Assembly: GCA_005883075.1 (NCBI GenBank)
Contig: VBAX01000054.1
Span: forward strand, 1 to 49,820
Direction of reading: 5' to 3'
Length of the DNA: 49,820 nucleotides
From: Candidatus Bathyarchaeota archaeon
Lineage (GTDB): Archaea; Thermoproteota; Bathyarchaeia; 40CM-2-53-6
The notes below the pieces were generated by a model. The model ran no database searches. It was not told the origin of the DNA and saw nothing but the letters and a program-made list of their open reading frames with translations. Positions 10,309 to 38,664 of this stretch are shown here, piece after piece. Position numbers and translations under genes: made by a program. How positions within the stretch are numbered: the first letter of the stretch is position 1; each line of letters opens with the position of its first letter.

Positions 10309-10953
10309 CTATACTATCTCGGGATAAAGTGGCAGAACCACCGCGTCCTCGGGAGCTATCAATCCGATCGCGACTAGTTGCGTAACGACTTCTAGTATCT
10401 GCATCCGAATCTCAGTTGGGGAGACTTTCTTTTCCACTGCGAGTTCGGATGTTAGCTCGTCGATTGTCTTGCTTCCATCGCTCTTCTCCCAGAGGCTGGC
10501 GATGTCATCGTTCCCGAGGTAGCGTGAATTTGCCTCGTTGATCAGGACAATGGTCCCATCGGGGTTCTTGGCGATATGCCCCTTCTTTCTAGGCTTGAAA
10601 CTGGCGGGGTCGAATTCGATCGTCACTGGCTCTTGGTTTGCCTGGAGACGTTCGCGAGCCGCTGCGCTCATCTTGTCAGGGGTCCAAGGTGGATCCCAGA
10701 CGATGTCGACGTCAGCGTGTCTGACACCGGGTATCTTCTCGATTAGTTCCTTGACCTGATGACTCAGGTAGGCGCTGGCAGGGCAGCCCATGGCTGTAAG
10801 GGTCATTCGAACCTTTACTGTATCACTGTCTATGGTGACGCCGTAGACCAGACCGAGATCGACAATGTTGACTGGTATCTCGGGATCGTAGCAATTCCGG
10901 AGAGCGCCCATCACCCGTTCGACGGAGAGTTCTTCGCTCAAGGACTTGATCAT
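10309..10953 (-). CDS. DUF59 (SufT/MIP18-like) - PqqD-like fusion protein
   Basis: A 214-residue two-domain protein. Residues 10-105 form a DUF59/MIP18 domain of the kind that assists iron-sulfur cluster maturation, with DPEIPVNIVDLGLVYGV and the cysteine motif TAMGCPAS. Residues 125-200 resemble the PqqD-like peptide chaperone domain, with VLINEANSRYLGNDDIASLWEKSDGSKTIDEL. DUF59 proteins act in Fe-S assembly; PqqD domains recruit peptides to radical SAM enzymes. The fusion suggests delivery of a cluster or a substrate to an Fe-S enzyme (inference). No radical SAM gene lies nearby. The upstream region carries AGGGATATTTAC-like A/T-rich sequence. Confidence 0.75.
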   Translation of the reverse strand: MIKSLSEELSVERVMGALRNCYDPEIPVNIVDLGLVYGVTIDSDTVKVRMTLTAMGCPASAYLSHQVKELIEKIPGVRHADVDIVWDPPWTPDKMSAAARERLQANQEPVTIEFDPASFKPRKKGHIAKNPDGTIVLINEANSRYLGNDDIASLWEKSDGSKTIDELTSELAVEKKVSPTEIRMQILEVVTQLVAIGLIAPEDAVVLPLYPEIV

Positions 10954-11037: not shown

Positions 11038-11844
11038 TCAGAGGACTCTGTTGAGCATGTCGTATGCAGCTGGGAGAAGACGGTTTTCAGCATCGATCAA
11101 CGGTCGCAGTTCTCCCGATTTCAACAGCTTCGCGATTCCAGTTCCGGTTGCCAGTTTTCCGTGACGCCAGCTTCGTAGGATCGGGCCGTATTCTCCCTTC
11201 AGACTCTTTGTAACGCTTTTGACCACGTTCTGGCCTTTCTCGGACTTGCTCTCCACTTCGATCTCGAAGAGGCGTATCTTTTGATCGTCGAAGTCGTAAA
11301 GCACTGAGTCAATGTCTAATTCCGCCAGGACCGGGGAGCCTTCAGAGCCAGACGTCACATCTCGTACCAGCCGTTGTGTCTCCCGATGCTGGATAGGAAC
11401 TAGTCCTTTGCTCTTCAAAAGCTCAATCGGGCCTGAAGGAGTAGTTTGACCCGCGGAAATGGGAGGTTGATGGGGGATCTTTAGCTCAGAAACCACTTTT
11501 TCAATAGTCTCATCTGACCAGGGAACCTCCATCTCAGATCGGACCATTCCACCCCAGAGAGTTCGTCTAGGATGCGTCTTCATAGTGATCCAACGATCCT
11601 GGTTATCTGTCCGTATTCTCAGATTCAACTTGCGATGCGAAAGAAAGTGGTTGGGAGTGTCGAAGTATGTGTCGGCAAGAAGCTTCGTCTTCTCACCGAC
11701 CAATCGATAATCTCCGACGCTTTTCTTATCAGCAATCTTTCTGACAATTTCCTCAGGATGATCTGACAGTATGAGGAGGATCGATTCAATCTCGCGGCCG
11801 AAACCCAGAGCCTGCGGTAGCTTGACCATCCTAGTCCAACTCAT
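11038..11844 (-). CDS. CYTH-domain (triphosphate tunnel) protein
   Basis: A 268-residue protein. The CYTH fold is visible from TYFDTPNHFLSHRKLNLRIR (about 60-78) through MKTHPRR, the strand SEMEVPW (about 103), AELDIDSVLYDF and LFEIEVESKSE (about 195). These alternate acidic and basic strands build the tunnel that binds triphosphate or polyphosphate. The N-terminal ExExK motif is weakened: EIES is present but the lysine is missing. The last 40 residues are helical. CYTH proteins include inorganic triphosphatases and adenylate cyclases. Its place beside SixA, Ppx, CHAD and VTC-like genes argues for polyphosphate metabolism. It is divergent from sixA, 68 bp apart. Confidence 0.8.
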   Translation of the reverse strand: MSWTRMVKLPQALGFGREIESILLILSDHPEEIVRKIADKKSVGDYRLVGEKTKLLADTYFDTPNHFLSHRKLNLRIRTDNQDRWITMKTHPRRTLWGGMVRSEMEVPWSDETIEKVVSELKIPHQPPISAGQTTPSGPIELLKSKGLVPIQHRETQRLVRDVTSGSEGSPVLAELDIDSVLYDFDDQKIRLFEIEVESKSEKGQNVVKSVTKSLKGEYGPILRSWRHGKLATGTGIAKLLKSGELRPLIDAENRLLPAAYDMLNRVL

Positions 11845-11912
11845 GGTCTTGAACGGAGAAAGCGTGGTTACTGAACTTTATCTGACTCACTGAAACTTCC
11901 CATAGGGACAAT

Positions 11913-12530
11913 TTGACAGAGGCCAAAAGAGTAAGGAGACAACGCGGCGCTTTCTCGGACGACAAAGAGGTCGGCCATAAGAAGGCGACTTCATCAACAT
12001 CCGCTCGGAACCCATCAAAGACAGCGACCTCCATAAAGATCGACATTTTCATACTGAGACATGGAGATGCAGGGAACCGAGTGACAGTTGTGGAGAAAGA
12101 TTCCGAACGACCGCTTACGCCGGAAGGCCGGGCTGAGATGCAGAAAATAGCAAAGTCATTGAAGGCAGTCGGATTGCAAACCGATCGGATCTATACAAGT
12201 CCATTGAGAAGGGCTCGAGAGACCGCAGAAATTGCGGCCAAGGTCCTCAAGATCCCAACATTGGAAGAATGGAACGAATTGAAACCAGACGGAAGCAAGG
12301 CAGAACTATATCGCAAACTAGCAAGACTCGAACAAGACTCCAGACCAATCCTTGTAGGACACGAACCTTACCTGACTTCCATGATAGGAGAGATCATCGG
12401 GACAACGAATGCTAAAATTGTTCTGAAAAAAGGAGGCGTAGGAAAAGTCCGAATAACGTCATTTAACCCTCGAATCTCCGGCGAACTCCGCTGGCTTCTC
12501 ACACCGAAAATCATCACTATGATGTCTTGA
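11913..12530 (+). CDS. sixA: SixA-type phosphohistidine phosphatase
   Basis: A histidine-phosphatase-superfamily protein (205 residues from TTG). The catalytic RHG lies in FILRHGDAG (about 47), followed by TSPLRRARETAE and a late LVGHEPYLTSM with the second catalytic histidine. The lean single-domain core matches SixA. The first 40 residues are basic and low complexity, so translation may start further in, though no clear internal ATG exists before the core. SixA dephosphorylates phosphohistidine proteins. In CHAD/CYTH neighbourhoods it may act on phosphorylated histidines in CHAD proteins or on polyphosphate-linked signalling (inference). It is followed by the Ppx gene 66 bp on. Confidence 0.85.
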   Translation: MTEAKRVRRQRGAFSDDKEVGHKKATSSTSARNPSKTATSIKIDIFILRHGDAGNRVTVVEKDSERPLTPEGRAEMQKIAKSLKAVGLQTDRIYTSPLRRARETAEIAAKVLKIPTLEEWNELKPDGSKAELYRKLARLEQDSRPILVGHEPYLTSMIGEIIGTTNAKIVLKKGGVGKVRITSFNPRISGELRWLLTPKIITMMS

Positions 12531-12596
12531 TTACCAAAACGAATCACTATGACTGCGCCGAAGTGAAACGGAAACGACGGGCGGCCCTGGCCAAGT

Positions 12597-14063
12597 TTGA
12601 AAGTCTCCGTGATAGACCTAGGCTACAACTCGCTAAAACTGGTCAACTACGAGGTCAGGCGAGACAAGTCGTTCGTAGCGTATGGACAGCAATCGGTTCT
12701 CGCGAAAGTTGGAGAAGGGCTTGACCAAACAGGCTTCCTAGGAGCCAAACCCGTCCGACGCACTCTCAAAGCTCTGAAACAATTCCGCGCCATCGTGGAC
12801 CTTGAGCATTCAAAACATGTTCTCCCGGTCGCGACCAGCGCTGTGAGGGAAGCTGGGAACAGAGAGGAATTTCTTAGGCAAGCATATCTCGAGACCGGGT
12901 TCAAGTTCAAGGTTCTGTCCGAGAAAGAAGAAGCAGTATACGCGTTCGAAGGAGCCAAAGGCGCGACCAGCGTCCGCGCCGGCTTGTTTTTCGACCTTGG
13001 AGGAGGAAGCCTGGAAATGGTCATTTACTCGGAACCTATGATCAAGAAAATCCTCTCAGTTCCTCTCGGAGGATTAAGACTAACTGACCTTTACGCAAAG
13101 GCAGATGGATCTTACACAAAGAAAAACTATGCCCGGATGAGAAAACGGATACTCGAACTCCTGCCCGAGAAGAAGCATCTTCCGGCTTCGAAAAACCTTG
13201 AGCTAGTGGGTGTCGGAGGCTCGGTGCGCGCAATCGCGCGGTATGACCAGATGCGAAGACAGTATCCTCTAAACAAGCTACACAATTATTCGATGAAGAA
13301 GAACGCCGTGGAAGGAGTACACCGCGCCCTCCGCAGAATGACTCTTAGGACGATAAGAAAGAATCCAGCAATAGGCCAAGAGAGAAGCCAATCAATCATC
13401 GCCGGGTCTCTAGTAGTTCACCTCCTGCTGATGGAGAAGGCTGGCTTCCGCAAACTTATTGTCAGCACACACGGTCTCAGAGACGGGGTACTCTCAGCTT
13501 TCCTCGAAAACCCAAGCTCATATCGCCAAAGAGTGGTAGACAAGGTTCTGATGCGCGAAGGGACAACAACACGCACGAAGACGTCCGCCCCGGAAAGGTT
13601 GGCCAAATCTCTCTTATCGCATAGGAACCTGACGAAGAGAGAGTATGCGATCCTCTCAGAGGCTCTCGATCACGTCTTGCCTAGTCTTCCGACCTACAAT
13701 CCGGAGACCTTGTTCTACATTGTTTTGGAGGCTGATAGTCCACTGTCACACGAGGACCAGCTGATCATGGCCTTGTCTGTTGCTAGAGCGAATGGAATGA
13801 GGCGGACAGATTGGGCTCAGACAAGTTACAAACGCCTCCTCGACAAGAAAAGCATGGAGATGGTGAAGAAGATTTCAGTCCTGATGCAAATTGCTCAACT
13901 CCAGCAGAAAACGGACATCCATTTATCCATGAGTTCTGAGCGCGGAATCCCTCGGCTTCACATTGCCCAGGGCAAGCAGCACATTCCAAAAGTGCTCGTG
14001 AAGGATATTCTTAGAGACCTCGAAGACCTTGAAGGCTCTTTCAATCTTCAACTCGCCATGTAA
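12597..14063 (+). CDS. ppx: Exopolyphosphatase, Ppx/GppA family
   Basis: A 488-residue member of the ASKHA ATPase fold, releasing terminal phosphate from polyphosphate (or hydrolysing pppGpp). The N-terminal phosphate loop is VIDLGYNSLKLV, the catalytic glutamate region is LSEKEEAVYAFEGA (about 120), the second phosphate loop is FDLGGGSLEMVIY (about 140) and VGVGGSVRAIARYD (about 205) forms the third. After residue 310 comes an HD-like helical domain (EYAILSEALDHVLP; DQLIMALSVARANG) as in long Ppx proteins. TTG start. It lies in a plus-strand run with sixA and chad, probably one operon. Confidence 0.9.
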   Translation: MKVSVIDLGYNSLKLVNYEVRRDKSFVAYGQQSVLAKVGEGLDQTGFLGAKPVRRTLKALKQFRAIVDLEHSKHVLPVATSAVREAGNREEFLRQAYLETGFKFKVLSEKEEAVYAFEGAKGATSVRAGLFFDLGGGSLEMVIYSEPMIKKILSVPLGGLRLTDLYAKADGSYTKKNYARMRKRILELLPEKKHLPASKNLELVGVGGSVRAIARYDQMRRQYPLNKLHNYSMKKNAVEGVHRALRRMTLRTIRKNPAIGQERSQSIIAGSLVVHLLLMEKAGFRKLIVSTHGLRDGVLSAFLENPSSYRQRVVDKVLMREGTTTRTKTSAPERLAKSLLSHRNLTKREYAILSEALDHVLPSLPTYNPETLFYIVLEADSPLSHEDQLIMALSVARANGMRRTDWAQTSYKRLLDKKSMEMVKKISVLMQIAQLQQKTDIHLSMSSERGIPRLHIAQGKQHIPKVLVKDILRDLEDLEGSFNLQLAM

Positions 14064-14111
14064 ACGCCCGAGAAAACCTAAGTAGTCTCACTTCTCGAAC
14101 CCAGCCTTCCC

Positions 14112-14906
14112 TTGATTACTCGCGACTCTTTCGCGAAAGAGTACGACAAATTTGCGAAAGCGCTGACACGAAGAGTCAAGGCCTACCTGAGAGATCCCAA
14201 TGCCGAGAATGTTCACCGGCTTCGAACCGCGACTCGCCGTCTCCAGGCCGCTTTCGCATTACTTCCTAAGACGACACGGAAGCAGAACAAGGCACAGAAA
14301 GCCATGTCTCGCATAAGGGAGTTGATGAAGGTAAACGCCAGTGTGAGAGACCAGGATATCATCCTCTCGAAACTGTCAATGTACAAGGAGAATCCCAGAT
14401 ACGAACGACTCATAGAGGATCTGAGGAAATCGCGCAAGTCTCATCTGGAGCAGGCGAAAGAGCTAGCATTGTCCGTTCAGAAAAATCCGGGACCTCGTGT
14501 GAAACCCAGAGATCTTTCCGAACCCGTGCTCCGGAGAAGATACGACAAGGTAGTAAGAAAACTAGGCTCGAAGATTACGAGTGAACTCCCGCTAGTAAGG
14601 GAAGACCCCTCTAAAATGGAGGAATTGCACGTCGTCCGAAGAGACTGTAAACAACTCCGTTATGTTCTAGAAATGGGTGAATTCTCTAGACCATCAAAGC
14701 CGCTAGTAGCTCTCCGAACTTGGCAAGATCTACTTGGCACGATACGCGACCACGATGTGATGATCGCACATCTTCGGAGACTCAACAAATCGCCGGAAAT
14801 CCAGTTGGCGCTAAACACAGAAACCGAGAGTCGGAACAACAGCTATCGGAAATTCGTCGAGGCTTCGAGAGAGAATCCGGTTTCTAGATTTGCTGCCAAG
14901 CCTTGA
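14112..14906 (+). CDS. CHAD-domain protein (polyphosphate-binding)
   Basis: A 264-residue all-helical protein. CHAD is a four-helix-bundle pair with conserved histidines and basic residues. It shows the two hallmark helices VHRLRTATRRLQAAF (about 35-50) and LHVVRRDCKQLRYVLEMGEF (about 178-198). Both follow the H-x-x-R-x-x-x-[KR] pattern that lines the inorganic-polyphosphate-binding groove. The C-terminal ALRTWQDLLGTIRDHDVMIAHL is also typical. The start is TTG. Known CHAD proteins localise to polyphosphate granules. It lies 48 bp after ppx and ends 7 bp from the convergent VTC-like gene. Confidence 0.88.
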   Translation: MITRDSFAKEYDKFAKALTRRVKAYLRDPNAENVHRLRTATRRLQAAFALLPKTTRKQNKAQKAMSRIRELMKVNASVRDQDIILSKLSMYKENPRYERLIEDLRKSRKSHLEQAKELALSVQKNPGPRVKPRDLSEPVLRRRYDKVVRKLGSKITSELPLVREDPSKMEELHVVRRDCKQLRYVLEMGEFSRPSKPLVALRTWQDLLGTIRDHDVMIAHLRRLNKSPEIQLALNTETESRNNSYRKFVEASRENPVSRFAAKP

Positions 14907-14913
14907 AATCGTT

Positions 14914-16200
14914 CTAGTTCGGCAGGCTCATTAGCCACTGGTTTTTCGTCAGAATCGTGGGCTCCAGTGAGTACTCTTCTATGAGATAGTTGGCCATGGA
15001 TGCCACATCGTTAATGCTCCGCGTCTCGGTTCTAGGAGAAGGCGAGTTCAGCACGTCCTCCACCTCCAACTGATACAGTTCGTGGCCGCGATGCGTGCTC
15101 CTATCCATCATCACCGCGTACTCCCTGGTTCCCCCGTTCCGCTCAACCATGAAGTACTTTCTCCTCCTCGTGAGAACCTTGTAAGGCATCTTCAACATAT
15201 CCGGCTGAAGAGGTTCCTCAATCTCCCGCCTCTTGATCACGTTACCCAGTCGATAAGGATCTTGCACGACCTGAAAGTTCTCCTTGATCGTCGCGGACCT
15301 CGATTGACCACTAGTTTCGAACCTCACGTATTCATGCGTGGGCACCTGAACGTAATGGTAGAGCTTGCCAGTCTCCATAACATTCGGGTAAGAGTCAGAG
15401 AGTCTGAATCCCTCGATCTTGCCCTCTGATAGATCGTTTCTTATCCTAGGGAAAATGTCCTGGTCCTCTGCGTCAAGCGCAACTTTTGCTTTGATCTCTG
15501 TGTTGTGGCTCGGTTCCTTGTACGCTTCACCAGATTTTCTAGCTCGGTCCTCGATGAGATTGAAGATCGTGGCCTTCTTGGAAATGCCCTGTTCTGCGTT
15601 CTCTTTCCTGAGAAGACCGTGAATTTTTCTGACTAGTGGACGACTTGTTCTGCCCGGCGGAATCTTCAGCTCCACGATGGCCCGGTTGGAGGCCCCTAGC
15701 ATTGTTCCTGCAAGTCCCTCGAAGGTGAAGTACCGGACATCTTCGTCCATTGTAACCCGCACTCCTCGATCACTGTCAAGAAAGTGATTCCTAGAATAGC
15801 TCGCGGCTGCATAGAGACCCAGTTTGTGTGGAATCCTGACATGGCCGAGCCGGCCCATTCGTTTTACGCTCGACAAGATTTCTTGAAGAGGCAGCATCTC
15901 GTTTCGTCGTTTGTGTCTGATGAAGCGGCCATGTTCTGACCGAGTGTTCTTTACCTCGAAAATCCACTTGTCGCTCAGCTTGAGCTTGAACCGTTCCTTG
16001 AACGGCTTTTGCTCGTATCTCCTTCCCCTGATCGAGTAGGTGAAGGGGACCTCGTGCTCCTCATTGTTGAAGTACAGTGTTTGGTTGACGGGGTTAGGGA
16101 AGCTGTTCAAGCTCATGAGCTCGAAAAGGCTGAGTTTGAATCTCTCAGCTTTGCGAGCGTCAATGTAGTACCGAATCTCGGCCCTAACTTGACTTCGCAA
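14914..16200 (-). CDS. VTC-like polyphosphate polymerase domain fused to CYTH-like domain
   Basis: A 428-residue protein. Residues 1-225 look like a VTC domain, the triphosphate-tunnel polyphosphate polymerase of yeast Vtc4: RAEIRYYIDARKAERFKLSLFELM at the start, then VNQTLYFNN, a basic strand KERFKLKL, WIFEVKNT, and late AIVELKIPPG. Residues about 232-428 restart with HNTEIKAKVALDAEDQDIF and continue with KLYHYVQVPTHEYVRFE, IKRREIEEPL and LYQLEVEDVL, resembling a second, CYTH-type tunnel. No membrane segment or SPX domain is visible, so it would be soluble. The predicted role is polyphosphate synthesis or sensing from ATP (inference). It converges with the CHAD gene and has no PPK-like motif. 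Confidence 0.7.
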   Translation of the reverse strand: MRSQVRAEIRYYIDARKAERFKLSLFELMSLNSFPNPVNQTLYFNNEEHEVPFTYSIRGRRYEQKPFKERFKLKLSDKWIFEVKNTRSEHGRFIRHKRRNEMLPLQEILSSVKRMGRLGHVRIPHKLGLYAAASYSRNHFLDSDRGVRVTMDEDVRYFTFEGLAGTMLGASNRAIVELKIPPGRTSRPLVRKIHGLLRKENAEQGISKKATIFNLIEDRARKSGEAYKEPSHNTEIKAKVALDAEDQDIFPRIRNDLSEGKIEGFRLSDSYPNVMETGKLYHYVQVPTHEYVRFETSGQSRSATIKENFQVVQDPYRLGNVIKRREIEEPLQPDMLKMPYKVLTRRRKYFMVERNGGTREYAVMMDRSTHRGHELYQLEVEDVLNSPSPRTETRSINDVASMANYLIEEYSLEPTILTKNQWLMSLPN

Positions 16201-29825: not shown

Positions 29826-30428
29826 CTAGAGAAACGCGCTTCTCAGCCCTAGAAGTATTCGCTCGTGAACCTCGACAGCTGGCCTCGTGCCATCTACAAT
29901 ATGCCATCCAAATCTGTGGGCTAGCGAACGATAGTTTCTCCGCACTTTCTCTAGGAACGCTCGGTCTCGCTCGTTGACATCCCGTCGACGGGTCTTTCTT
30001 GAGAACGACTTCGGAATGGGAACATCCAGGACAAAGACGGCACGAGCCTCTGGCAGACCCGCGTCGAGGCCTGCGAGCCATTGAACACTCAAGCCCCTTG
30101 CCTCGCCGTAAGCCAAGTTGGAAGGAGTGTATCTGTTACAGATAACAAGATCATTCTTCTTTAGAGCGCCAGTGATCGTTTCCATGTTTTCCCAACGGTT
30201 AAGGGAATAAAGTAAGTGCAATGCGTGCGGTGAAGTTTTGGCTCTCCCGGCGAGGAAGGATCGGATAAGTCGCCCTGAACTTGTAGAGTAGATTGGAAAG
30301 CTTAGAGTGCCGACCTTGAACCCTTCACGGCGCAAGCTTGCCGACAAGAGTCTCGTCTGAGTCTTCTTCCCTGCTTGGTCAATGCCTTCAAGCGCAATGA
30401 GACGGGAGGGCACGAGACAATCGAACAT
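29826..30428 (-). CDS. tmk: Thymidylate kinase
   Basis: A 200-residue P-loop kinase phosphorylating dTMP to dTDP. The P-loop is LIALEGIDQAGKKTQTRLL (GxDxxGKxT, with K in place of T at one site), the DR[YF]-like motif is VICNRYTPSNLAYGEARGL and the lid contains KTRRRDVNERD. The sugar-binding and phenylalanine positions around SLNRWEN fit tmk. Convergent with the Lon gene, 6 bp between stops. TTG/ATG start near MFDCLVPSR. A deoxynucleoside kinase is less likely given the motif order. Confidence 0.85.
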   Translation of the reverse strand: MFDCLVPSRLIALEGIDQAGKKTQTRLLSASLRREGFKVGTLSFPIYSTSSGRLIRSFLAGRAKTSPHALHLLYSLNRWENMETITGALKKNDLVICNRYTPSNLAYGEARGLSVQWLAGLDAGLPEARAVFVLDVPIPKSFSRKTRRRDVNERDRAFLEKVRRNYRSLAHRFGWHIVDGTRPAVEVHERILLGLRSAFL

Positions 30429-32958: not shown

Positions 32959-35900
32959 TTACCCGCAAACTAGTCGTCGGGATCTCCGAAGCTGTGCTCG
33001 GGCCCGCCTAGTGCCCACGGCAAGGGTAGTTGTCAGTCCAATCATTCCACTAAGCAGAAGCAACCAAGGATTGGTTGTCACAGTCGAAGTGCGCAAAACC
33101 GTTCCGGCAGTAGAGAAGAATTCGCAGATGAAACAGCGGCCGTTTCCGTTGTCCACATGAATGATTAGGACCTTCGAGTCTTGGAAAACCATTGAGCCGT
33201 CACTGGTCAACGTAAACGTGATGGTGTAAAGGCCTGGTTGCACAGAGCTGACGTTCCAGTTGAAGAATCCAGTAGAGGGATCGAAGCTCGCACCATCGGG
33301 AAGTCCGCTGGCGGCCAAGGTCATATTGTCCGCTGCCCAGTCGGGGTCAGTCACATTTACCATGAAACTTAGGTATTCTCCCTGCCGAACGTGAACTGGG
33401 CCTGGAACGATTAGTACTGGTTGCTCGATTACTTCATTGACGAGGATACTAACGTTGGCCGAGACGACTAGCGTCCCGTCTGATGCAGATATGGTCATGA
33501 TGTACGTGCCTGGTCCTCTACCTTCAGATGGTGTCCAGGTGAAGTTCCCGGACGCAAAACCGAGACCGCCATTCAGGGTGAAAGTTGCTCCGATGGCGAG
33601 GCAATTATCGCATGCAAGATTGATTGTCCGCGAGGGATCGCCTGTCGCTGAGACGTTGAAGGCGAGTGAAGAGCCTTCGTTGACAGTCTGAGAAGCAGGA
33701 ACAACCAGTGTAAGCAGTCTTGTTGTGATCGTGATGGTTTGGGAGGCAATTGCCGTTTCATTGGGGACGGAACTGTCCGTAACCGTCAGAGTAACAGTGT
33801 AGTTCCCCGTCGTGAAACTGTGAGAGACCGGGTTTCCAGTCGAGACTGATGAGGCGCCAAAGCTCCACGAATAGAGGTACGGAGAAGTCCCTCCGCTAGA
33901 AGTTGCCATGAAGGTGACTGATTGTCCGGCCTGAGCGGATGCCGAACTCATTGTAAAGCTCGCTGAGAGGGGGGCAGGGGGAGACTGAGAGACTGTTATG
34001 ATCTGGGTGATGGTTGTCTGGGTCATGCTTGAGTCCGTAACTGTCAGTGCTACTGTAAATGACCCGGCAGTTGCGTATGTGTGCGATGCTGGGTTTCCTG
34101 TTGCGGTGTTGTCGTCGCCAAGATTCCAAGCGTACGAGTATCCACCAGTGCCTCCCGAAGCAGATGCAACGAAGGTAACTTGAACACCAATTGTTGGGCT
34201 GGTTGAGACTGTGAAGCTTGCGGTAATTGGAAGAGCTACTACTGTCACACTCTGTGAAGCAATAGACGTGTTCGCATTGGCATCGGTGATCGTCACTGAA
34301 ACGGTGAAGGTTCCTTCCGTGCTGTAAGTCGTGGAGAAGCTTGCGCCTGTGCCTGAAGCTGGACTCCCGCCTGTTGCCGTCCACGCAAATGTGTACGGTG
34401 TCGTCCCTCCTGATCCAGTCGCAGTAAACGTGACCACTCTGCCTACTGTTCCAGTCGTGGGTCCACTGATCGTTACTGCAAGTAAAAGCGGATTAACCAA
34501 GATCCCGGCCGGTACCGTAACGGTCATTGCGTTTGCATCCGTTACCGTTACTGTCACCGTGTAAGTCCCAGGCATATTGAAGCTGTGATTTACCGGGTTT
34601 CCTGAAGCCGTGGTTCCATCACCAAAGTTCCAGTTGAACGTGTAAGGAGAAGTCCCGCCAGAGACGGAAGCAGTGAAGCTAGCGAGTTGTCCAACTATTA
34701 GTCCTGATGATGGTGTCATCGCGAAGCTGGCGGTCAGAGGCGATGGTGCAACAGAGAGGGTCTGAGTTGAGGCTGCTGTTTGAGCATTCGCATCCCTAAC
34801 TGTAAGCGTGACTGTGTAAGTTCCTTGAACAGAGTAAGTGTGGCTGACGACGTTTCCATTCCCGGAACTATTATCTCCAAAGTTCCAACTGAAAGTGAAC
34901 GGATTCGTTCCACCAACGATGGTGGCTGTGAAGGTCACCGATTGACTACTTATCGCCGACGTCGGGGTGATTGTGAAGCTAACGGTTGGCCGCGCGTTGA
35001 CGACCTCTGAAACTGTCTTGGATGCAGTAACTCCTAGGCTATCTTGCGCAGTCACGACGACCGTGAAGGTTCCTAGATTAGAGTAGACGTGTGTCGCCGA
35101 GCATCCAGTACTTGATGCGCCATCGCCAAAGGTCCAGTTGCAAGAGACCCCTCCGACACCACCATTGGTACTGGCCGAGAAGTTACTAGGAACGCCCGCA
35201 TCATTCGGGTTTGGACTAGCCATAGCAGATGGCACTGTTAGAGCTGCAACAACTGTGATTGATCTCGAGCTGGTCGCATTCTGGGGGGGCGAAGACGAGT
35301 CAGTGGCAGTCACGGTGATACTAAAGGTCCCACTAGTTCTGTAGACGTGAGTCGAAGTGATACCTGTCCCTGCGCTTCCGTCTCCGTAAGCCCACACGAA
35401 AGAAACCGGGGCGCTACAATTGGTTGCTGTGGCGGTGAAAGTCACCGGGGAAGTAGCCTCGGGCGTGGCGGGACTGAACGCTAGGCTAACGGTACATTGG
35501 GGAGCAACAGTAATTTTCACCACGATGCTCTCTGATATTGCGACGCCTAGACTGTCCTTCACTGTTACCATCGCTGTGAAATTCCCGGCTGTGATGTAGA
35601 CATGGTTGGTCGAGCATCCGGTGCCACTCGCGCTGTCGCCGAAGTTCCAAGTGCACGTGACTGGTGCAATTCCTCCAGAAGTCGTTACGATGAAGTTGAC
35701 CGTTTGTCCGGTGTTGGCTGGGTTTGGACCGGCGGTAGCGGTTGACACGCCGAGACCCGCTTTGACGACCACCGATTGAGCGGATGATGTTCCAGTCTTG
35801 CCGGCTGAGTCCATTACCGTGACTGTGACGCTGAAGGTTCCGGCAGCAGTGTAACCATGCGTGGGGGTGTTACCCGAGCCCAGAACTGAGCCGTCCCCGA

Positions 35901-38664
35901 AATTCCAGCTGAAGCTCACATATGGAGGAGTTCCCCCAGTAACCGTTGCACTAAAAGACACAGGTACGTTGACCTCAGTTGGACTAGTGCTCAACGTGAA
36001 GTTTGCCGTCATAGGAACCAGAGCAATCGCAAGGCCCTGACTCGAAATAACTTGGGTATTGACCGCGTCCGTTAAAGTAAGCGTTACAGTGAAGCTGCCT
36101 GCAGTCGAATACGCGTGAGTCACCGTCGCCCCTGATGCGGTCTGGCCATCTCCAAACATCCAGGAATACGTGTATGGTGTTATTCCTCCAGCGCCGGATC
36201 CTGTGAAGGTGATCAAGCTGTTTACTTGAGGCGATGATGGTGTGAACGTGAACGAGGCAGCCAACGCAGGGATAGTTACGGTTACAGTCTTACTTGCAAT
36301 AGCCTTTTGTTGCGGGCTGCTAGCGTCCGTTACGGTCAGAGTTACAGCGTAGGTCCCGGCCGAGGAATAGGCGTGGCTTGAATTCTGTCCGGTGGCCGTG
36401 GCACCATCCCCAAAACTCCACGAGTACGCGTAGGGTGTTGTTCCACCGCTGGCAGTGCCAGCGAATGATACGCTTTGACCTATTAGTGGAGAAGATGGCG
36501 CGAAGCTGAAGCCAGAGGTCAACGCTGGAGGCGCTGCTGTCGTGAGTTTCACATTGTACCAGTTCACGTCTAGTTCCTGGAACTGGAATCCCTCCGTCCC
36601 TATCTCTATCCCAGCAAGCTCACACGGAGTAGTGGTTGGTAGTCCCCATGCCGTTAGGTCGTCTTGGCACTGTTGCAGGACGTTGGCGGTTAGCGTGCCC
36701 GATTGTCCTAGGCTAGTTTGCAGAGTAACCTGGTCCCAACCGAATGAGTCTCCCGGGTTGTAGGTTGCAGTAGAACCAATTGTGCTGAATATTCCACCTA
36801 CATTCTCTACTCGAACCTGGGTGTCGAGACACTGATACGTGGAACCGCCTGCAGAAACAGGTCCGTTTGGAAGCCAGTAATAGAGCGCGATATAGATATG
36901 GTATCTATCTGAGCTTGGACTTGAGCCGGGATTGTAGGAGAGAACCGTGAAGTTTGCGCTCACACTTGATAGTCCGGTAGGAATGACACCTGACACTGGA
37001 GCCTGACATGGACTCCAAGGAAATGTTCCTTTCTGCGTCGTAGCGTAGTAGTAGATGGTGTCGCTTCCTTGGCCTGGATTTGACTGGCGAGTCTCTAGTA
37101 CGCCGTTAACAATCGTGGCGGAGCTGGTTGATGGAATAGCATTGCCACAACTCCAACCCTGAGGAAGGTTTGAGCAATTGCCAAAGTTCCCCGTTGGAGG
37201 TAGTATCACGGAAACGGTTTGTGAGCTCGTCGCTGTTTGTTGCAGTGAGGACGAATCCTTCCCTGTCTCAGCTACCGTGAACGACTGGGCCGTCATGTAA
37301 GTGTGGCTTACAATCGTTCCTGTTCCCGTTGACCCGTCGCCGAAGTTCCAAGTAAAAGTGTAGGGTGCGGTCCCGCCTGTGGTCACGGCGGTAAAGGTGA
37401 CCGGTGAATTAGTCGACGGAGTTGTTGGAAGAAACGTGAACCCAGTCGAGAGGGGAGGCGGGGTTCCCAAGACAGTCACGGTGCTAGAGCTCGTCGCAGT
37501 CTGGGAGGGAGAAGAAGAGTCCGTCACTTTTTCTGTCACTGTGAACGTTTGTGCACTGGTAAAGGTGTGAACGATCGATGATCCTGTTCCAGACGCGCCA
37601 TCGCCAAAATTCCAGCTGATGGAATACGGGGAAAGGCCACCGCTGCTTGTGGCCGTGAAAGTAACCGGTGCGTTCACCAGCGGCGCTATTGGTGAGACCG
37701 TAAAGCTTGTCGATAGTGGCGATGGTGTCGTCGTGCCAAAGAATTCGGTCATGGGGGTCGCGGTGCAGTCTGTTGAGACGATGCATGCGAGGCCCCAGTT
37801 CTTCTCCATCGTCGCGAGTAACGAATAATGATCGTACAGGGCCGTTGACTTGTAAGCAAGTTTCGCCGCGGGTCCGGCGAGAATTGTATAGACATAGTCG
37901 CTGGGGTAGCTGTTGTTTCCCTCGTCGAATGTTACGATGAGAGCAGCCTTGGTTGTGGTGAACACTGTGGAGCTGAGAATCTGCGGGATGAGAGTGCTCA
38001 TGTACGTGTCTCCTGAGGATATCGAGTTGTCGTGCATGTTGTGGCTGTTGTCAGGGTTGATCCAGATCAGGTTCGCCCCCCCGCCGTTGAGTTCAGTCAA
38101 AAGATTCGTAGGGGTGCTTGTCGAGAACGAGTGGATGTGGGAGCATCTGTTCGAACTGCTCACAATGTCGTTCATGAAGAGTAGGCTGGCGTGGTACGCA
38201 GTGCCGAAAGATTGGTCACAGCCACCTGAAGAACCCTCATAGTAAGCATCCCAGGTTAGTCCTGCTGATTCCATCCTGTCAATTAGATTAACCGCGTTTG
38301 AGGAATACGATCCACCCGGAGCAGTTGGTCCACTGTCGGTGGTGCTGTTACCGCCTCCTGAGAGACAGCCCCCTATGTTGGGAGAAGAATTGCTACAATC
38401 TCCGGCGAGTCCAGAGACCAAAGCGAGATAGTTGGGCTCGCTCGGGTGGTCTACCGCGCTGTATCCTTGAGAGAGAGACCATGCGTTAGCTAGCCCTGTG
38501 AGATACGGAGCAGAACTGCTTCCGTATATCTCGTTCAAATTGTGATTCTCTAGGATGAGAACAACAATATGGTCAAACATGCTCGGAGAAGCAGCTGATG
38601 CATTGGCGTTGGAGGCCGCAAACGCGGTTGCCGGTATGGCAAGTGCGATTGATGCCAGCAGCAA
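32959..38664 (-). CDS. Giant surface phosphoesterase with about 13 PKD repeats
   Basis: A 1901-residue secreted, membrane-anchored protein. A signal peptide (LLASIALAIPATAFA) is followed by a phosphoesterase-family domain (about 28-310: LILENHNLNEIYG, SEPNYLALVSG, IVTFDEGN), as in acid phosphatases/phospholipase C. PKD repeats with W.FGDG cores follow: two before a beta-rich, LamG-like segment (about 495-715) and about eleven after it. Two Ig/cadherin-like domains (NVSATGDPS; MVNVTDPDW) lead to a C-terminal helix (WLLLLSGMIGLTTTLAVG) and basic tail. PKD domains bind glycans or act as spacers. The TTG start lacks a basic n-region; the frame stays open upstream to a CTG at 38706 that adds GRRPLLAI, a better signal peptide. 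Confidence 0.88.
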   Translation of the reverse strand: MLLASIALAIPATAFAASNANASAASPSMFDHIVVLILENHNLNEIYGSSSAPYLTGLANAWSLSQGYSAVDHPSEPNYLALVSGLAGDCSNSSPNIGGCLSGGGNSTTDSGPTAPGGSYSSNAVNLIDRMESAGLTWDAYYEGSSGGCDQSFGTAYHASLLFMNDIVSSSNRCSHIHSFSTSTPTNLLTELNGGGANLIWINPDNSHNMHDNSISSGDTYMSTLIPQILSSTVFTTTKAALIVTFDEGNNSYPSDYVYTILAGPAAKLAYKSTALYDHYSLLATMEKNWGLACIVSTDCTATPMTEFFGTTTPSPLSTSFTVSPIAPLVNAPVTFTATSSGGLSPYSISWNFGDGASGTGSSIVHTFTSAQTFTVTEKVTDSSSPSQTATSSSTVTVLGTPPPLSTGFTFLPTTPSTNSPVTFTAVTTGGTAPYTFTWNFGDGSTGTGTIVSHTYMTAQSFTVAETGKDSSSLQQTATSSQTVSVILPPTGNFGNCSNLPQGWSCGNAIPSTSSATIVNGVLETRQSNPGQGSDTIYYYATTQKGTFPWSPCQAPVSGVIPTGLSSVSANFTVLSYNPGSSPSSDRYHIYIALYYWLPNGPVSAGGSTYQCLDTQVRVENVGGIFSTIGSTATYNPGDSFGWDQVTLQTSLGQSGTLTANVLQQCQDDLTAWGLPTTTPCELAGIEIGTEGFQFQELDVNWYNVKLTTAAPPALTSGFSFAPSSPLIGQSVSFAGTASGGTTPYAYSWSFGDGATATGQNSSHAYSSAGTYAVTLTVTDASSPQQKAIASKTVTVTIPALAASFTFTPSSPQVNSLITFTGSGAGGITPYTYSWMFGDGQTASGATVTHAYSTAGSFTVTLTLTDAVNTQVISSQGLAIALVPMTANFTLSTSPTEVNVPVSFSATVTGGTPPYVSFSWNFGDGSVLGSGNTPTHGYTAAGTFSVTVTVMDSAGKTGTSSAQSVVVKAGLGVSTATAGPNPANTGQTVNFIVTTSGGIAPVTCTWNFGDSASGTGCSTNHVYITAGNFTAMVTVKDSLGVAISESIVVKITVAPQCTVSLAFSPATPEATSPVTFTATATNCSAPVSFVWAYGDGSAGTGITSTHVYRTSGTFSITVTATDSSSPPQNATSSRSITVVAALTVPSAMASPNPNDAGVPSNFSASTNGGVGGVSCNWTFGDGASSTGCSATHVYSNLGTFTVVVTAQDSLGVTASKTVSEVVNARPTVSFTITPTSAISSQSVTFTATIVGGTNPFTFSWNFGDNSSGNGNVVSHTYSVQGTYTVTLTVRDANAQTAASTQTLSVAPSPLTASFAMTPSSGLIVGQLASFTASVSGGTSPYTFNWNFGDGTTASGNPVNHSFNMPGTYTVTVTVTDANAMTVTVPAGILVNPLLLAVTISGPTTGTVGRVVTFTATGSGGTTPYTFAWTATGGSPASGTGASFSTTYSTEGTFTVSVTITDANANTSIASQSVTVVALPITASFTVSTSPTIGVQVTFVASASGGTGGYSYAWNLGDDNTATGNPASHTYATAGSFTVALTVTDSSMTQTTITQIITVSQSPPAPLSASFTMSSASAQAGQSVTFMATSSGGTSPYLYSWSFGASSVSTGNPVSHSFTTGNYTVTLTVTDSSVPNETAIASQTITITTRLLTLVVPASQTVNEGSSLAFNVSATGDPSRTINLACDNCLAIGATFTLNGGLGFASGNFTWTPSEGRGPGTYIMTISASDGTLVVSANVSILVNEVIEQPVLIVPGPVHVRQGEYLSFMVNVTDPDWAADNMTLAASGLPDGASFDPSTGFFNWNVSSVQPGLYTITFTLTSDGSMVFQDSKVLIIHVDNGNGRCFICEFFSTAGTVLRTSTVTTNPWLLLLSGMIGLTTTLAVGTRRARAQLRRSRRLVCG

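Follow-up and report, generated by a model that had tools for sequence, protein, structure and literature searches.

The five-gene island at positions 11038–16200 of the window (the whole 49,820-nucleotide stretch of the Candidatus Bathyarchaeota contig VBAX01000054.1 analysed here) raises the question of which protein makes polyphosphate (polyP) in its host, and whether the VTC-like protein encoded at one end of it could be that enzyme. The source genome is a MAG of 1.9 Mb in 147 contigs, 88% complete, and its nearest named relatives are soil MAGs labelled "Candidatus Bathyarchaeota" or "Crenarchaeota". The initial annotation had described adjacent CYTH, SixA, Ppx/GppA, CHAD and VTC-like genes, with convergent chad/vtc and divergent cyth/sixA pairs and very short gaps, and the open reading frames and their domains bear this out (Table 1). 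The CYTH and SixA genes diverge across 68 nt, SixA and Ppx are separated by 66 nt and Ppx and CHAD by 48 nt, these three genes being adjacent, and CHAD and the VTC-like gene converge across 7 nt. All five domains exceed their Pfam cut-offs. The translation start of SixA probably lies near 12039, downstream of the ORF start, since the N-terminal stretch is missing from distant relatives. The five-gene arrangement recurs intact in close members of the genus, at 75–95% protein identity, and the island is therefore neither a chance grouping nor a misassembly.

Table 1. Features of the island in the window.
Feature	Position	Strand	Profile match and remarks
CYTH-domain protein, 268 aa	11038..11844	-	PF01928 1.1e-14; short-chain polyphosphatase/triphosphatase-like
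SixA-type phosphohistidine phosphatase, ORF 205 aa	11913..12530	+	TIGR00249 9.3e-26, residues 44–198, above cut-off
Ppx/GppA exopolyphosphatase, 488 aa	12597..14063	+	PF02541 1.1e-39; TIGR03706 2e-70
Stand-alone CHAD polyP-binding protein, 264 aa	14112..14906	+	PF05235 1e-21
VTC-like protein, 428 aa, candidate polyP polymerase	14914..16200	-	PF09359 7e-7

The island could in principle serve a function other than polyP metabolism, namely nucleotide or protein-phosphate signalling, with GppA-like hydrolysis of pppGpp, a SixA acting on phosphohistidine and a CYTH cyclase. Some members of each of the Ppx/GppA, SixA and CYTH families act outside polyP metabolism, and the Ppx of the window scores 237 bits against TIGR03706, under the model cut-off of 307. 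However, experiments have shown that CHAD domains, archaeal ones included, bind polyP (PMC6537752), Ppx and CHAD are paired with PPK1 in related islands, and a Ppx from Sulfolobus is a known exopolyphosphatase. We consider a signalling cluster highly improbable. A defence role was rejected, as PADLOC returned only insignificant matches.

Not all of the five genes belong to the island to the same degree. Gene order is conserved in the genus, but the CYTH gene is not a constant member and adjoins the other island genes in the closest subclade alone. In G002, G008, G010, G011, G016, G018 and G020 its homologue lies on contigs without island genes, and these include the two divergent VTC-bearing members, G002 and G011. 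These homologues on other contigs elsewhere in the family rule out CYTH as a core member; its gene is loosely attached, having entered the cluster in that one subclade.

PPK1 was found in none of the 18 genus members examined, the source genome included, and among 61 relatives it occurs in only two genomes, from another family of the same order. On the other hand, a profile search of the contigs of the source genome detected a PPK2 on contig C108 (5.6e-73). The earlier statement that neither PPK1 nor PPK2 is present thus stands for PPK1 only, and the proposal of a complete system in a PPK-free genome has to be given up, as a PPK2 elsewhere in the genome is just what was to count against it. 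This protein matches TIGR03709 (1e-112), its best PDB matches are polyP:AMP phosphotransferases (5lc9, 1e-97), and it is class-III-like; a PhoU-domain gene lies two genes away. It is not a stray contaminant, since 11 genus members carry PPK2 and, among the other loci read, two have the same MFS gene next to it. PPK2 accompanies the VTC-like gene, which is present in 12 of the 18 genus members: it was found in 11 of these 12 and in none of the six that lack the VTC-like gene (Fisher p 3.8e-4, a value that ignores phylogeny and, as the genomes are related and several are incomplete, is not a true probability). PPK2 enzymes of the class-III-like type normally spend polyP on AMP or ADP, running toward nucleotide synthesis. 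Such enzymes are mostly known for consuming polyP; the presence of one points to a polyP pool more than it accounts for one, and agrees with a system in which a maker is required as well.

To place the island, Ppx neighbourhoods were compared across the phylum, with 20 loci sampled outside the class. In 16 of these 20, SixA and Ppx occur with two adjacent thymidylate-kinase-like P-loop genes (TMK), usually in the order SixA-Ppx-TMK-TMK-CHAD. Five AOA-like loci differ in having the kinase pair on the opposite side, where it diverges from SixA. The families sampled are taken to be Sulfolobales and ammonia-oxidising archaea (AOA). CHAD was recognised in eight of the 16 SixA-Ppx-kinase loci; the small profile used misses most CHADs of the Sulfolobales type. 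The same kinase-type island occurs in the genus of the window: G010 has SixA-Ppx-TMK-TMK-CHAD and G008 has SixA-Ppx-TMK-TMK, followed by the end of the contig. Both genomes, the only kinase-type ones available in the genus and both incomplete, are without the VTC-like gene and without PPK2. Within the class, the TMK pair was found in these two genomes only, at 262–524 bits, as compared to at most 116 bits for ordinary thymidylate kinases, one of which the window itself encodes at 29826–30428. In the VTC-bearing members the VTC-like gene abuts CHAD and the kinase pair is absent, and the island of the window likewise contains no such pair. Other Bathyarchaeia have PPK1-CHAD-Ppx (L110–L112). Comparison of the PPK1, kinase-pair and VTC neighbourhoods therefore places the same Ppx/CHAD core beside each of the three.

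Such an exchange might be mimicked by incomplete MAGs, the kinase pair being present in the VTC-bearing genomes but left unsequenced, and the genus genomes are indeed only 52–95% complete. The sequenced VTC-type islands, however, have Ppx and CHAD as neighbours, with no room for a pair, and the pair is absent from all 12 VTC-bearing genomes, four of which combine a completeness of 90% or more with a contamination of no more than 5%. We therefore regard an assembly artefact as quite unlikely.

In the Ppx tree, the root of which was placed for drawing only, the five sampled VTC-type islands form one clade (99/98), and its sister group is the two kinase-type islands from this genus (the seven together have 100/100); the closest outgroups are again kinase-type islands. 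Most simply read, the tree calls for a single loss of the kinase pair and a single gain of the VTC-like gene. When genes are exchanged at a constant place within a conserved pathway cluster, one enzyme has often been replaced by another of like function. Together, the Ppx tree and the absence of the kinase pair are the best evidence for the VTC-like protein as the polymerase of the island. An exchange within one genus and at one island points to both the VTC-like protein and the kinase-like pair as the step at which polyP is made; the pair itself is a candidate polymerase only.

The N-terminal half of the VTC-like protein (about residues 6–215) corresponds to a VTC/TTM domain. In the profile comparison proposed for it, the window protein scored 29.4 bits against PF09359, above the cut-off of 23, and the same profile matched 10 of 11 VTC-like members at E<=1, with a best value of 1.4e-8. 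A PDB sequence search with the full protein or a narrow profile gave nothing credible, and Vtc4 was found only when the profile was widened by the single-domain VTCs. An AlphaFold2 model was built with ten sequences of the genus and can be used for the N-terminal half alone (pLDDT mostly 55–87; whole-model pTM only 0.47), for which it predicts the TTM tunnel fold. In a Foldseek search with this model, the top four matches were Vtc2p, two Vtc4 structures and the VTC complex (E 2e-7 to 4e-7), while CYTH and other tunnel proteins ranked below Vtc2p and Vtc4.

Most of the basic and metal-binding tunnel residues are kept. R6, E82, K84, R137, R148, D152, E177, K179 and K209 are invariant across the archaeal VTC set, and the first six of these align with R196, E279, K281, R361, R373 and D377 of Vtc4. 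R10 aligns at Vtc4 K200, and Y43 is kept when the protein is aligned with the archaeal single-domain VTCs and with Vtc4 of yeast. Judging by the LEVK motif and their position, the invariant E177 and K209 would correspond to E426 and K458 of Vtc4. In Vtc4, the ATP-binding residues R264 and R266 are essential for synthesis (PMC8749416). The automatic alignment pairs them with K72 and K74, which vary in the two divergent members, being R/H and D there. In our own reading, which is not a computed result, the invariant strand R58-x-R60-x-Y62 appears to be a better motif match. The expectation that the tunnel residues are retained is thus borne out for most positions, but not securely for the counterparts of these two arginines.

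The C-terminal half, of 210 residues, was considered as a second VTC or CYTH domain and rejected as such, as Pfam and profile comparisons with the VTC set and the island CYTH were negative, and a separate model of it gave no assignment (pLDDT 36). On a motif reading alone it may form another tunnel domain and so provide an internal partner, comparable to Vtc3 for Vtc4.

These features bear on whether the VTC-like protein is instead accessory or hydrolytic, like the non-catalytic Vtc2 and Vtc3 or the TTM triphosphatases, so that polyP would come from PPK2 or import and the island would only bind and degrade it. Among TTM proteins hydrolases are commoner than polymerases, the top structural match is Vtc2p, a non-catalytic subunit, and K72 and K74 are not conserved in the divergent members. 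The near-constant co-occurrence with a PPK2 that matches TIGR03709 so strongly points the same way, and PPK2 could also make some polyP. Against this, the nearest PDB relatives of that PPK2 are polyP:AMP phosphotransferases, a class that normally runs toward nucleotide synthesis, the residues at Vtc4 E279, K281, R361, R373 and D377 are kept, and the loss of the kinase pair from the same island would then need another reason. We view an accessory or hydrolytic role as a possibility to be taken seriously, though not as the favoured one.

That the VTC-like protein is a polyP polymerase, taking the place of the thymidylate-kinase-like pair in a polyP island, is in our judgement an even call. The initial annotation had named it as the polymerase; the exchange with the kinase pair and the proximity of the N-half model to Vtc2 and Vtc4 support this, while the similarity to VTC is weak at the sequence level (29 bits) and the match to R264 and R266 is uncertain. 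If the protein is a polymerase, a cytosolic VTC-like protein would make polyP from ATP, its N-terminal tunnel domain moving the gamma-phosphate of ATP onto the growing chain. To judge from their families, the CHAD protein would bind this chain, Ppx would hydrolyse it to phosphate and the class-III-like PPK2 encoded elsewhere in the genome would recharge AMP or ADP from it, while short chains may be broken down by the adjacent CYTH protein. In the weakest step of this scheme, SixA would take phosphate off a protein or small partner. More tentatively, and somewhat short of even, we propose that a divergent soluble archaeal VTC replaced the kinase pair, and that PPK1, the kinase pair and VTC are unrelated, interchangeable polymerases around one polyP core. 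The finding bears on polyP synthesis in archaea that lack PPK1 and, if true, would mean that VTC-type polymerisation also occurs in archaea, in a protein that lacks the membrane complex of eukaryotes.

A cluster of SixA, PPX, dTMP kinase and CHAD is drawn for the Sulfolobales in the legend to Fig. 2 of PMC10892726, and a distinct crenarchaeal PPK family, with an enzyme from Sulfolobus, is attributed to Hofmann et al. 2026 where PMC13318637 cites that work. Calling the system previously undescribed was thus too strong. The cluster of SixA, Ppx, kinase pair and CHAD is a known, recurrent one in Thermoproteota, and the island, a form of it with the VTC-like gene and without the pair, is not wholly new. 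Like the Sulfolobales cluster, the island of the window joins SixA, Ppx and CHAD with short gaps, and this grouping with two kinase-like genes also occurs in AOA-like and Bathyarchaeia genomes. Unlike it, the island lacks the kinase-like pair and has a VTC-like gene that converges on CHAD; in the close subclade there is also a CYTH gene that diverges from SixA. The crenarchaeal PPK family likewise concerns the PPK missing from archaea. We suspect that it corresponds to the kinase-like gene next to Ppx, in which case the VTC-like protein would have taken over its function.

The PPK1-CHAD-Ppx cluster of other Bathyarchaeia (family f11) also places CHAD and Ppx beside a polymerase. There, however, the polymerase is PPK1 and CHAD lies inside a protein of ~780 aa; in the related protein that was read from end to end (L103) it is fused to calcineurin-like and HD-type domains. 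Neither SixA nor VTC was found beside the f11 cluster. As compared to eukaryotic Vtc4, the N-terminal half resembles it in its match to PF09359, in its model and in most tunnel residues. It differs in the extra C-terminal half and the uncertain counterparts of the two essential arginines; no Pfam match to an SPX domain was found in the protein, nor to a Vtc1-like membrane partner among the island proteins.

With a profile of the full protein, the VTC-like gene was detected in 12 genomes, all of one genus, while the remaining 245 genomes of the class gave no match. Only the same group came out of a pattern scan over 85,462 species genomes, which reaches only sequences sharing short conserved stretches. 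PF09359 alone found one of the 12 VTC-bearing genus members, and surveys using only that profile therefore miss the divergent form. Ordinary single-domain VTCs, which share the PF09359 domain, occur in archaea of the same class, in 14 other genomes. They are mostly 220–260 aa long, as compared to 428 aa for the highly divergent island protein, which is next to CHAD and Ppx. The three such loci opened lie away from polyP genes, with no island gene near, and carry a DUF4956 gene within 1 kb.

In the Ppx islands of Thermoproteota, a tandem pair of thymidylate-kinase-like genes is almost always included. One gene of the pair may be degenerate, because the second copy gave no match to a simple P-loop pattern in 13 of the loci carrying the pair (among L093, L145-L160 and L163). 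In the related genome G016, an orphan CHAD gene is 87% to the CHAD of G010, a genus member with a kinase-type island, and is flanked by the same genes as in G010, while SixA, Ppx and the kinase pair are missing.

The VTC-like gene of another relative, G006, lacks part of the region of residues 80-137 and contains internal stops, and is either a pseudogene or an assembly fault. The archaeal VTC-like gene of this group is also present, together with CHAD, in L045, a record entitled 'bacterium isolate Centralia_MAG_577', which looks mislabelled.

Near PPK2 in the genome of the window lies a gene for a PhoU-domain regulator, with an HflX-like GTPase gene in between. In Bathyarchaeia, one protein fuses CHAD to a phosphoesterase of the calcineurin-like type and to an HD/Ppx-GppA domain III; in L110-L112 this protein adjoins Ppx as well as PPK1. 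Within the window, the DUF59/PqqD-like fusion gene adjoins the island, and a 1,901-aa protein, on visual inspection of its translation, seems to begin with a phosphoesterase-like N-terminal stretch and to carry PKD-like repeats as well as a membrane stretch at its C terminus.

Coordinates of the features in the window and in loci (L) of related genomes
Feature	Location	Remark
PPK2 region, genome of the window	L116:4342-7579	
Tandem thymidylate-kinase-like genes	L093:4589-6123; L145-L160, L163	Thermoproteota Ppx islands
Orphan CHAD, G016	L092:8317-9648	
Broken VTC-like gene, G006	L043:10001-11117	
~780-aa CHAD fusion protein	L103:470-2818; also L110-L112	adjoins PPK1
DUF59 (iron-sulfur assembly P domain) + PqqD-like domain fusion	window 10309-10953	
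1,901-aa protein	window 32959-38664	judged by eye from translation
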